This document shows positions 3 through 21,793 of a DNA stretch of 64,000 nucleotides, piece after piece (within the stretch, counting starts at the first letter, position 1; each line of letters opens with the position of its first letter). The notes below the pieces were generated by a model, which ran no database searches, was not told the origin of the DNA, and saw only the letters and a list, made by a program, of their open reading frames with translations. Position numbers and translations under genes: made by a program. The stretch is from Spirochaetaceae bacterium 4572_59 (GTDB taxonomy: Bacteria > Spirochaetota > Spirochaetia > DSM-2461), in assembly GCA_002084805.1 (NCBI GenBank), contig NBMC01000003.1:124001-188000 (forward strand), read 5' to 3'.

Positions 3-242
3 GCCTTTGGTAGAGGGGGAGCTCTGGATACGGTTCTTCCCGGAAAAACAGGTATACTCTTCCAGGAACAGAATACAGAGATGCTGATACAGGCCATTGA
101 AGAGTTTGAAAAGGTTCAATGGGATTCCAAAATAATCAGAGAACATGCAGAGAGTTTCTCCAATGAGCGCTTTGACAGGGAAATTGCCGCTTATGTTTCA
201 GAGAAATGGGAGATAAGAAAGAAAGAAATAGGGCTCTCCTGA
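3..242 (+). CDS. Glycosyltransferase, C-terminal fragment (5' truncated by window edge)
   Basis: Open frame from position 3: AFGRGGALDTVLPGKTGILFQEQNTEMLIQAIEEFE..., a GT4-like C-terminal motif; TGA at 240-242. Confidence 0.75.
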   Translation, partial: AFGRGGALDTVLPGKTGILFQEQNTEMLIQAIEEFEKVQWDSKIIREHAESFSNERFDREIAAYVSEKWEIRKKEIGLS

Positions 243-5414: not shown

Positions 5415-6140
5415 TTGAAATTTCCCCTGTTTTCCGCAGTGATATGCATGATGATACTAGCCTCCTGTTCCGTTGATCAGGATATTTTTCTGAATTCCGA
5501 CGGCTCAGGTACAGTTACGGGACGGATCCTTCTGGATGATTTCTATCTGAATACACTCACTGATCTGACAGACTTGAATGCCCCTTCCGAGGGAGAGAGA
5601 ACAGCTATGGATCCGGAAATGATTTCTGCTGAATTAAATAGGAACCCCTACCTTCAGAATATTCAAATAAGCTCTGCCGCTCCGGGAATCTATCAAGGGC
5701 AACTGAGCTTTCATGATGTGGAGGAACTTTTTTATACAGATGAAGGAGTTGAAAGTTCTGTACTATCATTTCATAAAAATAACGAAAACAGTACTTTAAT
5801 CATACGAATTAACAGTGATAACTTTCAGGAACTATTCCGCCTGTTTCCTGTTCTTCAGGATCCGGGATTTCAGTATTTTCTCCCGGAACCTTCTATTACA
5901 CGTAGTGAATATATTGAGATGCTTCTCTTTCTTTTCGAAGATCAGTTTGACCGCAGTGAAGATGAGCTGCTGTTGAAAATCGAGAAAGCCTCTCTTAATT
6001 TAACAATCCATACGGATGGGAATATTATCTCTTCGGAAGGAGGTTCTCTTGCAGATGATAATCAATGGCGTATTGAGATTCCTCTTCTTGAGCTCCTTCT
6101 TCACCGGAAAGAGCTTTTCTATTCGCTAACATTTAAGTAA
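5415..6140 (+). CDS. Putative lipoprotein, unknown function
   Basis: Signal peptide with lipobox LASC; TTG start at 5415 preceded by GGAGGT (5405-5410); the track start (5403) overlaps the SD. Confidence 0.65.
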   Translation: MKFPLFSAVICMMILASCSVDQDIFLNSDGSGTVTGRILLDDFYLNTLTDLTDLNAPSEGERTAMDPEMISAELNRNPYLQNIQISSAAPGIYQGQLSFHDVEELFYTDEGVESSVLSFHKNNENSTLIIRINSDNFQELFRLFPVLQDPGFQYFLPEPSITRSEYIEMLLFLFEDQFDRSEDELLLKIEKASLNLTIHTDGNIISSEGGSLADDNQWRIEIPLLELLLHRKELFYSLTFK

Positions 6141-18423: not shown

Positions 18424-19140
18424 ATGAATATGAGCAGTTTTACAACATTAATAACGCTGTTGCTTGTCGCAGCAGGATATATCAGCCCCTGGTTTCAGGA
18501 GCAGATTCGGACAATGGGATTTTTTGCCCTGTCAGGAGCCGTCACAAACTGGCTGGCCATTCACATGCTTTTTGAAAAAGTCCCGGGTCTCTACGGTTCC
18601 GGAGTTATTCCCCTGCATTTTGAAGATTTCAAAAAAGGGATTCGCCAGATGATTATGGATCAGTTCTTCACAGTGGAAAATGTTTCACGAATTATGAATG
18701 ATGAAGCGGGAGTTCTGACTGCAAAAGTCGATTTTTCTGCTGCAGCTGATGCGGTTAACTACGACAGGATATTCGACGGACTCACAGAAACTATCTTGAC
18801 ATCCTCTCTTGGGAGCATGCTGGGAATGTTTGGCGGAGCCTCTGTAATTGAAGGATTCAGAGCCCCTTTCAAGGAAAAAACCAGACAAATCATTGTGGAA
18901 GAAACTGGCAACCCCGAATTCCACAAAACCCTGACCGGTTCTCTGGACACAGAAAAAACAGCGAAAGATATCATTAAAAAAGTGGAAAGCATTGTATTTA
19001 CCCGTCTGGAAGAACTGACACCACAGATGGTAAAAGAAATAATACAGGAAATGATACGGAAGCACCTTGGTTGGCTCGTTGTATGGGGTGGTGTTTTCGG
19101 TGGAATCATCGGCTTATTCATGAGTCTGATTCCCTCCTGA
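18424..19140 (+). CDS. DUF445 family membrane protein
   Basis: GFFALSGAVTNWLAIHMLFEKVPGLYGSGVIPLHFEDFKKGIRQMI. Confidence 0.8.
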   Translation: MNMSSFTTLITLLLVAAGYISPWFQEQIRTMGFFALSGAVTNWLAIHMLFEKVPGLYGSGVIPLHFEDFKKGIRQMIMDQFFTVENVSRIMNDEAGVLTAKVDFSAAADAVNYDRIFDGLTETILTSSLGSMLGMFGGASVIEGFRAPFKEKTRQIIVEETGNPEFHKTLTGSLDTEKTAKDIIKKVESIVFTRLEELTPQMVKEIIQEMIRKHLGWLVVWGGVFGGIIGLFMSLIPS

Positions 19141-19210: not shown

Positions 19211-19250
19211 AAAAAAAAGCCCCTACAGAAAAGGAGGAAACTGCAGGGGC
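19211..19250 (-). terminator. Rho-independent terminator of candidate sRNA
   Basis: Minus strand GCCCCTGCAG-TTTCCTCCTTTT-CTGTAGGGGC-TTTTTTTT. Confidence 0.8.
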
Positions 19251-19383
19251 ACAAAATCAAAAGGAAAAAAAGTTAATCAATCTTTTTCTCCGACAAAACA
19301 AGTTAACAACTTATTTCGTCTTATAAAAACTGATGATTAAGAAAAGGAGGGAAAACTTAAACATCAGCAAGGTCCTAAATATT
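19211..19383 (-). ncRNA. Candidate small RNA with two CCUCC-loop hairpins and intrinsic terminator
   Basis: Promoter directly upstream; hairpin 19330-19367 with loop UUUUCCCUCCUUUU; hairpin 19263-19291; hairpin 19219-19250 with loop UUUCCUCCUUUU followed by U8. The A-C mismatches of the plus strand become G-U pairs on the minus strand. Confidence 0.72.
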
Positions 19384-19389
19384 ATTTAA

Positions 19390-19418
19390 AATATAATAAT
19401 CTCACAGTTAAAAGTCAA
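19390..19418 (-). promoter_or_regulatory. Sigma70-type promoter for candidate sRNA
   Basis: Minus strand TTGACT (19418-19413), 17-nt spacer, TATATT (19395-19390). Confidence 0.7.
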
Positions 19419-19531: not shown

Positions 19532-20935
19532 TTAGCATATTGGTAGAGTAATTCTGAATAGAGCGCCATGGTCCTGTCCTTCTTCAACTTCAAGGTATCC
19601 ATTATGAAGATCAATAATAGCCTTGCTGATTGCCAATCCTAATCCGGAGCCCCCCTCCTGACGATTACGGGACTTATCCAATCTGTAAAAACGGTCAAAT
19701 ACTTTTAATCTCTGATCCGCCGGTATTCCCGGTCCTGTATCCTCAACTTCAATGATAAGTTTCTCTTCCATACGGAAAGTTCTGAGTGTAATAGAGCCTT
19801 CTGAAGGTGTATATTTCACAGCATTGGCAAGCAGATTTTTCAAAACCTGCTGCAGTTTCCGCCGATCACCCGCCCAGGAGTCATGGAAATGGGCCTCCAC
19901 ATGAATCTGTAATTTTTTATCAACCCTGACAGCCCGAAAACTTTCGGCCATGAGGGAAATCAGCTCATCCGGATCAAAGACCTCCTTTTCCAGATCAGTC
20001 TGAGAAGATTCCGCACTGGAAAGCTCATGTAGATCCCGTATCAGATCTGCAAGAAGAGTACTTTCATTATAGAGGGAACGAAGTCGTTCCTCATCCGCCT
20101 CATATATCCCGTCCAGCATCATTTCCAAGTTCCCCATTATCAGACTGACCGGAGTCCGCAGTTCATGAGCCGTATCGGAAATGATTTGCTTCTTCCACTG
20201 CTCAGAAGCTTGAAGGGAGGCAGCCATTTCATTAAACCCTTCCGCCAGTCTGCTCAATTCATCCCCGGATCCGGGATGGTCCACACGAAAAGAGTAATCT
20301 CCCCGACCGAGAAGCCGTACCCCCTGATTGAGAGAATTCAAAGGTTTCAAAATCTTCTTAAGAAACAGAACGCCTATAAAGGAGGCAAGTACAGCGGACA
20401 GCATAGCAGAAAAGAGAACTCCCAGAAGGAGAGATCTCAGGTATTTATACTCCGTCTCGGGCAGGGATCCTTCCAGCATTACCCCGGCAAATACATAACC
20501 CGTAATAGCCCTGTTTTTATTGAAGAAAGGGACAGCATCCAAGAGTTTCGTATCTGAAACAGAGTTGTGAAAGTGCTCCCGCATTCCCGCATTTCCTCTA
20601 AGAACAACACCATTTTTATCTGTGACAAGGAATCCCACAGGCTCGATATCTCCAGAAGCCCTTATCATGGGCATCGTTTTCATTCGCGGCTGCATGTGTC
20701 TGGGCCGCTGAGCTGCCAGAGAAAGAGAAGAAATGGCCTCATCCAGACGGTTATTCTCTGCTGAGGTGGTCAGATAACCCGCTATGGTATGAGCAAGGTT
20801 ACGGTCCTTCTCAAGAGCATAAGCTCTGAATCTGCTGGAAGAGAGAGAGAAAACCAGCAGTATCGTTATCACACTGCTTACAAGAATAGTCCCAGCTATC
20901 AGGATCACCAGGCGGATAGACAGAGATGTTTTCAT
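19532..20935 (-). CDS. Sensor histidine kinase (TM-HAMP-HisKA-HATPase)
   Basis: ISDTAHELRTPVSLIMGNLEMM; GSGLGLAISKAIIDLHNG; start 20935 overlaps the regulator stop (ATGA). Confidence 0.9.
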   Translation of the reverse strand: MKTSLSIRLVILIAGTILVSSVITILLVFSLSSSRFRAYALEKDRNLAHTIAGYLTTSAENNRLDEAISSLSLAAQRPRHMQPRMKTMPMIRASGDIEPVGFLVTDKNGVVLRGNAGMREHFHNSVSDTKLLDAVPFFNKNRAITGYVFAGVMLEGSLPETEYKYLRSLLLGVLFSAMLSAVLASFIGVLFLKKILKPLNSLNQGVRLLGRGDYSFRVDHPGSGDELSRLAEGFNEMAASLQASEQWKKQIISDTAHELRTPVSLIMGNLEMMLDGIYEADEERLRSLYNESTLLADLIRDLHELSSAESSQTDLEKEVFDPDELISLMAESFRAVRVDKKLQIHVEAHFHDSWAGDRRKLQQVLKNLLANAVKYTPSEGSITLRTFRMEEKLIIEVEDTGPGIPADQRLKVFDRFYRLDKSRNRQEGGSGLGLAISKAIIDLHNGYLEVEEGQDHGALFRITLPIC

Positions 20936-21636
20936 AAATCTTCCCTCATGCGGTAGCCGACGCCCCATACTGTCTGTAAATATTCGGGATGAGAGGGATT
21001 CTCCTCAATGAGTTTCCTGATATTTTTTATATGAACATCGATGGAGCGTTCGTATCCCTCATAAGGGTCTTCCTGAAAAGACTTGAGCAGATCCATCCGG
21101 GTGTAAACCCGTCCGGGAGAACTGATCATTTTATAAAGGATACTGAACTGAGCAGCTGTAACATCCACGGAGGCCTCTCTGATTTTTACTGACCGCTTAA
21201 TAGGATCGAGGGTCAGCTCTCTTAAACTAACAGGATCCTGGTCCCTGTCTGAGGAAAGGGCTGTGGCCGGCTCTGATCGTCTTAATACTGCACGGACCCG
21301 GGCAGCCATCTCTTTCATGCTGAATGGTTTACAGATATAGTCGTCTGCTCCAAGTTCCAGTCCCAGGACTTTATCCCCTTCTCCGGCTTTGGCCGTGACC
21401 ATAATAACAGGAACCCGGCTCTCCTTTCTTATTTCCCGGAGAACATCGATTCCATCCAGAACGGGCATCATAACATCCATAAGGATAAGATCCGCTGGAT
21501 CCTTCCGGAACAGTTTTAAGGCTTCCCGGCCATCCAGAGCGGGGGTCACTGCAAAACCAAGAGCATCCAGGTAGTCACAAATCATATCATTGATTTTCGT
21601 TTCATCTTCGGCAACCAGTATTCTTATCATACTCAA
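20932..21636 (-). CDS. OmpR-family response regulator
   Basis: ILVAEDETKINDMICDYLDALG...LILMDVMMPVLDGIDVLREIR; winged-helix RSIDVHIKNIRKLIEENPSHPEYLQTVWGVGYRM. Confidence 0.93.
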   Translation of the reverse strand: MSMIRILVAEDETKINDMICDYLDALGFAVTPALDGREALKLFRKDPADLILMDVMMPVLDGIDVLREIRKESRVPVIMVTAKAGEGDKVLGLELGADDYICKPFSMKEMAARVRAVLRRSEPATALSSDRDQDPVSLRELTLDPIKRSVKIREASVDVTAAQFSILYKMISSPGRVYTRMDLLKSFQEDPYEGYERSIDVHIKNIRKLIEENPSHPEYLQTVWGVGYRMREDL

Positions 21637-21793
21637 TACTATACAACGAAATATGAACAGAGTATAAACAGAGGCTGAATTCTTTATAAAAAATATTCGA
21701 TAAAAGTCATTTATCAGGAGGCCTGGTCGTACTATAATTATATATCCGTTTCAGTACATAAAAACTGAACAGCATAAAAGGATATAAAAGCCC

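Follow-up and report, generated by a model that had tools for sequence, protein, structure and literature searches.

Is the short interval between a two-component sensor kinase gene and a convergent DUF445 gene in Spirochaetaceae bacterium 4572_59 the site of a genuine small RNA gene, and, if so, what might be the role of its hairpin loops, which resemble the 3' tail of 16S rRNA? The window considered here is the whole 64,000-nucleotide stretch of this genome (G000) that was analysed; with the five congeneric genomes in our collection, six genus genomes were available in all. A sequence-only reading had proposed a minus-strand RNA at 19383-19211, with a promoter, hairpins A and B, an AU-rich hairpin and a U8 tract. 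All of these elements held, and a fourth conserved hairpin at 19320-19292, overlooked in that reading, is added here (Table 1).

A conserved, structured RNA gene

From 5' to 3' the locus is ordered as P2 promoter, hairpin A, hairpin 2, hairpin 3, hairpin B and U8. A pattern scan recovers both the P2 promoter (10/12 positions) and the terminator, and the predicted fold of the RNA reaches -54.6 kcal/mol, compared to -28.6 +/- 3.4 for shuffled sequences (z = -7.6; 0/200 shuffles as good). A comparison of ORFs across the orthologs recovered no conserved ORF in the RNA locus, and a protein-coding reading was rejected, the ORFs being short and unconserved. Rfam returned no family match at threshold anywhere in the whole window; a relaxed search of the RNA stretch (E <= 10) yielded 18 sub-threshold matches, the best of them far under the gathering scores.

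Table 1. Features of the RNA locus and its surroundings, in coordinates of the window
Feature	Position	Strand	Details
Predicted small RNA, ~173 nt	19211..19383	-	TSS inferred 7 nt after the -10; ortholog in 5/5 congeners
Proximal promoter P2, TTGACT-17-TATATT	19390..19418	-	TTGACT 19418-19413, 17 nt spacer, TATATT 19395-19390; TTGACTT, GAGATTA and TATATTT blocks conserved in 6/6 genomes
Hairpin A	19330..19367	-	14-nt loop UUUUCCCUCCUUUU at 19355-19342
Hairpin 2	19292..19320	-	GACGAAAUAAGUUGUUAACUUGUUUUGUC; invariant UUGUUAA apex
Hairpin 3, AU-rich	19263..19291	-	Loop AUUGAUUAA
Hairpin B, terminator stem	19219..19250	-	12-nt loop UUUCCUCCUUUU at 19240-19229
U8 tract, intrinsic terminator	19211..19218	-	From sequence and pattern scan
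Candidate distal promoter P1	19483..19529	-	11-bp direct repeats 19529-19497; -10-like TATATT 19488-19483, 8-9 nt on
HAMP-HisKA-HATPase sensor kinase	19532..20968	-	Same strand, upstream of the RNA; synteny 6/6
OmpR-family response regulator	20932..21636	-
Direct-repeat box before response-regulator gene, TTTATACTCTGTTCATATTTCGTTGTATAGT	21638..21668	-	Same architecture 6/6
DUF445 gene, convergent	18424..19140	+

All five congeners possess an ortholog (BLAST E 4e-15 to 4e-23; covariance-model bit scores all >150, with the model built from those same orthologs), and in 6/6 genomes the RNA is flanked by the sensor kinase gene on its upstream side and by the convergent DUF445 gene on the other. 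In a structure-aware alignment (A4), 95.7% of the stem cells are paired and 15/43 base pairs show compensatory change, with 0/500 shuffles matching it on any of five measures. This alignment was fitted to the model structure and is biased in its own favour; an independent MAFFT alignment (A1) already displays two-sided change at 11 pairs. The compensatory changes include 6/12 pairs in hairpin A and 7/10 pairs in hairpin 2; hairpin 3 shows strong sequence conservation and no two-sided changes. The clearest example is hairpin A, whose stem reads CUGAUG.UUAAG/CUUAA.CAUCAG in the window and, for example, CUUCAG.UGGAG/CUUCA.CUGAAG in relatives; despite such changes its loop is the same across the genus, except that the window RNA has a single C inserted. 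The invariant columns number 13/14 in loop A and 12/12 in loop B (identical in 6/6), as against 14/56 in the linkers. The presence of five orthologs together with the covariation excludes chance, and the check proposed beforehand, namely compensatory stem changes around constant loops, was passed in the alignment of the six orthologs. This comparative evidence shows the window RNA to be a real, conserved, structured and non-coding sRNA; its expression is inferred, there being no transcript data.

Two other conserved apical segments lack an anti-SD character: the UUGUUAA of hairpin 2 (19310-19304), found in 6/6 genomes, and the loop of hairpin 3 (19281-19273), nearly invariant in the six. It is conceivable that they constitute a protein-binding site.

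The assignment to the minus strand, previously argued from G-U pairs where the opposite strand would have A-C mismatches, also held. All orthologs have their promoter and U-tract on the minus strand, and 45 distinct stems from the wider set of loci described below include 14 G-U pairs and 0 A-C mismatches, a pattern expected only if the minus strand is transcribed. The same observations all but exclude the alternative in which the plus strand is read as a CsrA/RsmE-type sponge with GGA in its hairpin loops (GAAAAGGAGGAAAC), for which it can be said that CsrA is encoded in 5/6 genus genomes and that the complements of the loops contain GGA motifs.

Anti-SD terminator hairpins across the spirochaetes

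Outside the genus, the exact sequence TTTCCTCCTTTTC does not occur in terminator hairpins; the search was therefore extended with covariance models and a less strict pattern. Searching with the covariance model R1, built on the six orthologs, turned up numerous weak matches throughout the class; on inspection, the great majority proved to be intrinsic terminators whose long loop reads GG[UUU-N0-5-(A)CCUCCUUU(U)]CC. One weak R1 match within the window itself (5741-5899, plus strand) was taken as chance, as its sequence lacks an anti-SD motif. We then consider a pattern scan of GTDB, with one genome per species (85,488 species), that asked for the loop and a downstream T-run without requiring a full stem and recovered at least 120 stretches. 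Among these, a stem of >=8 pairs is present in 79/79 spirochaete-labelled matches versus 8/41 of the others (Fisher p = 3e-22). Four of the eight non-spirochaete full-stem matches represent one Syntrophales-type hairpin, and another is in a Leucobacter MAG that is possibly mis-binned. The named hosts include Alkalispirochaeta alkalica, Breznakiella homolactica, Sphaerochaeta spp., many Treponema MAGs and Spirochaeta sp. UBA5339, the last being G001 of the window's own genus (1 kb identical).

A hairpin-only model (R2) finds matches at E <= 0.01 in 80/395 sampled genomes of the phylum, spanning several classes, and most of the weakest matches inspected keep CCTCC in the loop; the E-values of both R1 and R2 are rough owing to a short calibration. 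A directional loop pattern is likewise seen in 33/395 genomes; its reversed version, used as a control, occurs in 4. Several subfamilies have a second anti-SD hairpin (L127, L134, L144, L146), and in the Sphaerochaeta type the second anti-SD element is a linear CUAACCUCCUUUUG just before the terminator, indicating that the two-copy design of the window RNA is recurrent. The claim that the terminator loop serves as one of two seeds is therefore supported and, if anything, was understated, since the terminator loop is the very element that recurs across the phylum, though its binding as a seed is inferred. Hairpins of this design also extend well beyond the single lineage considered in the sequence-only reading.

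Could these be ordinary intrinsic terminators with a C/U-rich loop arising by chance and no regulatory role? Hairpin B is indeed a canonical terminator. However, conservation is highest in the loops despite variation in the stems; elsewhere in these loci, terminator-like hairpins have loops mostly <=9 nt; CCTCC is found in 67/72 loops of >=11 nt (in loci chosen for the CCTCC motif); and hairpin A bears the same loop without a U-tract. This alternative can be set aside with near certainty. We found no earlier description of such hairpins in spirochaetes in the open-licence literature searched, and within the sources searched the family, its phylum-scale spread and the repeated copying of the 16S tail by terminator loops are new here.

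The scans also brought up further loci. The window's genome has a second one (G000:C8:21534-21850; L031, L048) with two tandem single-hairpin anti-SD terminators, cccccgg[TTTTCCTCCTTTT]ccggggg and ctcccggg[TTTCCTCCTTTT]cccggggg, the second of which is preceded by an ECF-like promoter, TGTAACC-N15-GGTT. Congeners have one or two further single-hairpin anti-SD loci (L032-L035, L037, L115-L117, L125), most of which share this ECF-like promoter; a conserved 5' segment GTAGAACAACA..TTCTCCT is seen in one of their two types. Terminators of the form cccgacaggt[TTTTCTCCTCCTTTT]gcctgtcggg characterize L346 and L360 (family f26), from genomes of ~2.8-2.9 Mb whose hosts we take to be probably Treponema. 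A separate terminator hairpin, aggyggatgg[TTTARGTCCCTCCTTTT]ccatccrcct, is found in Syntrophus/Syntrophobacterales (L164, L185, L264, L268; one labelled Pseudomonadota) and might represent an independent anti-SD sRNA.

Promoters and control of expression

In the 69 wider-set loci with enough flank, a sigma70-like TTGA(C/T)N-16..18-TANNNT element lies 30-185 nt upstream in 45, the corresponding control counts being 1 (reverse strand) and 7 (downstream). Twelve of the remaining loci have an ECF-like TGTAAC...KGTT (0 in controls), bringing the loci with a sigma70- or ECF-like promoter close upstream to 57/69 in all. The promoter distances cluster by subfamily (73-83, 111-114 and 119-141 nt), and the neighbouring genes differ. 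These fixed distances amid variable neighbours support the hairpin RNAs of the wider set being genes of their own, with the caveat that the promoters are predicted.

The genus RNA stands 102-202 nt past the kinase gene on the same strand in 6/6 genomes, and no terminator was found between the two in the six; accordingly, read-through from the kinase mRNA is possible. On these grounds the RNA might be seen as mainly the 3' UTR and terminator of the mRNA that encodes the two-component system, with the sRNA released by processing. Against this, a near-consensus promoter with conserved elements immediately precedes hairpin A, and hairpins of the other families stand behind promoters of their own irrespective of the adjoining genes, making this a very unlikely account. 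We favour transcription from P2 as an independent gene.

The intervening region has a further feature. In each of the five congeners, the stretch between the kinase gene and the RNA holds three 11-bp direct repeats (AATCTTSACA type) that lie ~105 to 72 nt upstream of the -35 and are followed after 9 nt by TANNNT. Their repeat score is reached in 0/300 shuffles, though the repeat unit was derived from those same sequences; the repeats are weaker in G000 (20/30 units; 2/300 shuffles). Boxes of 11-bp repeats precede both the regulator gene and the RNA, the strict form being seen in 6/6 genomes at the former and 3/6 at the latter. The response-regulator gene is preceded in the window and its orthologs by TTCAYA-N5-TTCAYA, then N8-9-TANNNT, raising the possibility that the two-component system is autoregulated. 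PhoB/OmpR boxes usually have such an arrangement of direct repeats and a -10 element; by this resemblance, the adjacent two-component system may give rise to an additional, longer transcript. That it feeds the additional upstream promoter P1 is a tentative suggestion, unproven and more speculative than the rest.

Loops that copy the 16S tail and a proposed mode of action

The 3' end of 16S rRNA is GAUCACCUCCUUUCUA in the genus (GGAUCACCUCCUUUCUA in two congeners), and the loops mimic this tail; the commonest loops among the spirochaete matches contain UCACCUCCUUUU or AACCUCCUUUU. The loop of the window RNA is complementary to an extended Shine-Dalgarno sequence, AAAAGGAGGAAA. Its pairing with the SDs of the 49 genes predicted in the window is moderate (median -6.4 vs -4.2 kcal/mol shuffled), and 0/49 reach -12. 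A specific set of 12-nt targets was rejected, as the only sites with the full 12-mer in the genome of the window lie opposite the loops of the sRNAs. With moderate pairing and no separate 12-mer targets in that genome, any specificity beyond the SD core remains unexplained. The arrangement AAAGGAGG-N4-9-ATG is modestly above its backward control (20 vs 13 in the own genome, 30 vs 16 in G003), and among the genes so preceded in the two genomes are those for a DctP binding protein and for several BPD_transp transporter permeases. In the subset examined by blastp, no orthologous targets common to G000 and G003 were found; in the absence of a shared orthologous pair, the transporter theme is anecdotal and is given no weight.

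The computation establishes structure, strand, conservation, covariation, promoters, distribution and the similarity of the loops to 16S rRNA. The explanation that best accommodates these, and one we regard as likely, is a family of trans-acting translational repressors that would occlude Shine-Dalgarno sequences. The trans-acting translational regulator of the sequence-only reading is thus supported as an interpretation, while expression, binding to SDs, target mRNAs and the direction of regulation remain inferred. Under this proposal, each RNA of the spirochaete-wide set would display one or two copies of CCUCCUUU in mimicry of the 16S 3' tail, with one copy placed in the loop of the intrinsic terminator; transcription of the genus RNA would start from a consensus promoter located immediately after the two-component system. 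The loops would base-pair with Shine-Dalgarno sequences, long ones (AAAGGAGG) being the best partners, keeping the 30S subunit off and lowering the translation of a set of mRNAs. The two equivalent loops would offer redundancy, and the pairing would proceed without need for Hfq, which was detected in 0/6 genus genomes by a search that was positive in the controls (E. coli, B. subtilis and others). Should SD occlusion be correct, the RNA would be expected to act on the smaller share of mRNAs whose SDs are long, or else in a rather global manner.

An alternative retains the mimicry and directs it towards a partner other than mRNA leaders, with the loops being a decoy for a factor that binds the 16S 3' end or pairing with regulatory RNAs that display GGAGG. 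In its favour, the loops resemble the 16S tail (as UCACCUCCUUUU does in many Treponema MAGs) more than any specific target, the own genome has no 12-mer targets, and sRNA-sRNA pairing via UUUCCUCCCU is documented (PMC12559287), as with CrfA and SisA in Caulobacter. Against it, mRNA leaders are the targets of those known anti-SD sRNAs that have been tested (PMC10746234), and only CCUCCUUU is constant while loop length and flanks vary between families, which fits SD pairing equally well. We consider this alternative unlikely and retain SD occlusion as the preferred reading. A bolder form of it, which we offer only as a possibility, is a translation-control layer across the Spirochaetota, in which sRNA terminators copying the 16S 3' tail would, free of Hfq, tune all strong-SD mRNAs rather than a few targets, with some of these RNAs being ECF-controlled and some situated near two-component systems.

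Comparison with known anti-SD RNAs

The closest parallel is with the ar14/cuckoo RNAs, in which multiple hairpins with unrelated stems present an identical unpaired anti-SD motif as redundant seeds (PMC10746234), an architecture that hairpins A and B share. NfeR1 of Sinorhizobium meliloti has three hairpins, each with CCUCCUCCC on differing stems, and SD occlusion is its supported mechanism (PMC10746234); its independence of Hfq and its sigma70-type promoter are further likenesses (PMC10746234). The ar14/cuckoo motif CCUCCUCCC nevertheless differs from the CCUCCUUU(U) of the window RNA, whose loops read CCCUCCUUUU and CCUCCUUUU and lack the 9-mer. The window RNA further differs in its phylum, in mimicking the 16S tail itself and in placing one copy in the terminator loop. 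No ar14-type alphaproteobacterial family of Rfam was recovered at threshold or among the 18 sub-threshold matches. As motif, phylum and model all differ, the window RNA is not a member of this family: the comparison with cuckoo RNAs drawn earlier held for architecture and failed for family membership. By analogy, it probably works as the cuckoo-type anti-SD RNAs do, its function being inferred.

Other systems share individual features. The aR8 sRNAs of Caulobacter crescentus (SisA-D) have an anti-SD core, UUUCCUCC, an intrinsic terminator and mRNA repression by base pairing (PMC12559287), with SisA pairing through UUUCCUCCCU (PMC12559287). However, the aR8 core is a linear single-stranded 10-mer in Hfq-dependent alphaproteobacterial RNAs, whereas that of the window RNA is held in closed loops and reads UUUCCUCCUUUU in hairpin B. 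The streptococcal csRNAs of the CiaRH regulon are sibling sRNAs with an unpaired anti-SD under two-component control (PMC3091779), and the window RNA adjoins such a system. This control is established for the csRNAs and only suggested for the neighbouring regulator here; moreover, the csRNAs pair with the SD and start codon via a region between two stem-loops with a conserved nonamer, unlike the genus RNA, whose anti-SD copies sit in hairpin loops. FoxJ/FoxI of Fusobacterium nucleatum have a C-rich seed, which FoxJ presents in a hairpin loop, together with ECF sigma dependence, and act without Hfq (PMC11005410), paralleling the part of the spirochaete set with ECF-like promoters. Their seed is poly-C rather than a mimic of the 16S tail, and conservation of the terminator loop is not mentioned in the relevant sections (PMC11005410). 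LhrC of Listeria has CU-rich loops with several seeds, and its terminator loop is involved; the window RNA falls far short of its Rfam model (RF00616; score 24.9 vs gathering score 110).

To our knowledge, small-RNA regulation in spirochaetes has hardly been described outside Borrelia and Leptospira. No Rfam family covers the window RNA, and the present set provides Treponema, Sphaerochaeta, Alkalispirochaeta and their uncultured relatives with ready candidate regulators that have testable seeds. Beside the alphaproteobacterial cuckoo RNAs, these spirochaete hairpins furnish an independent case of evolution reaching loops that copy the recognition sequence of the ribosome.
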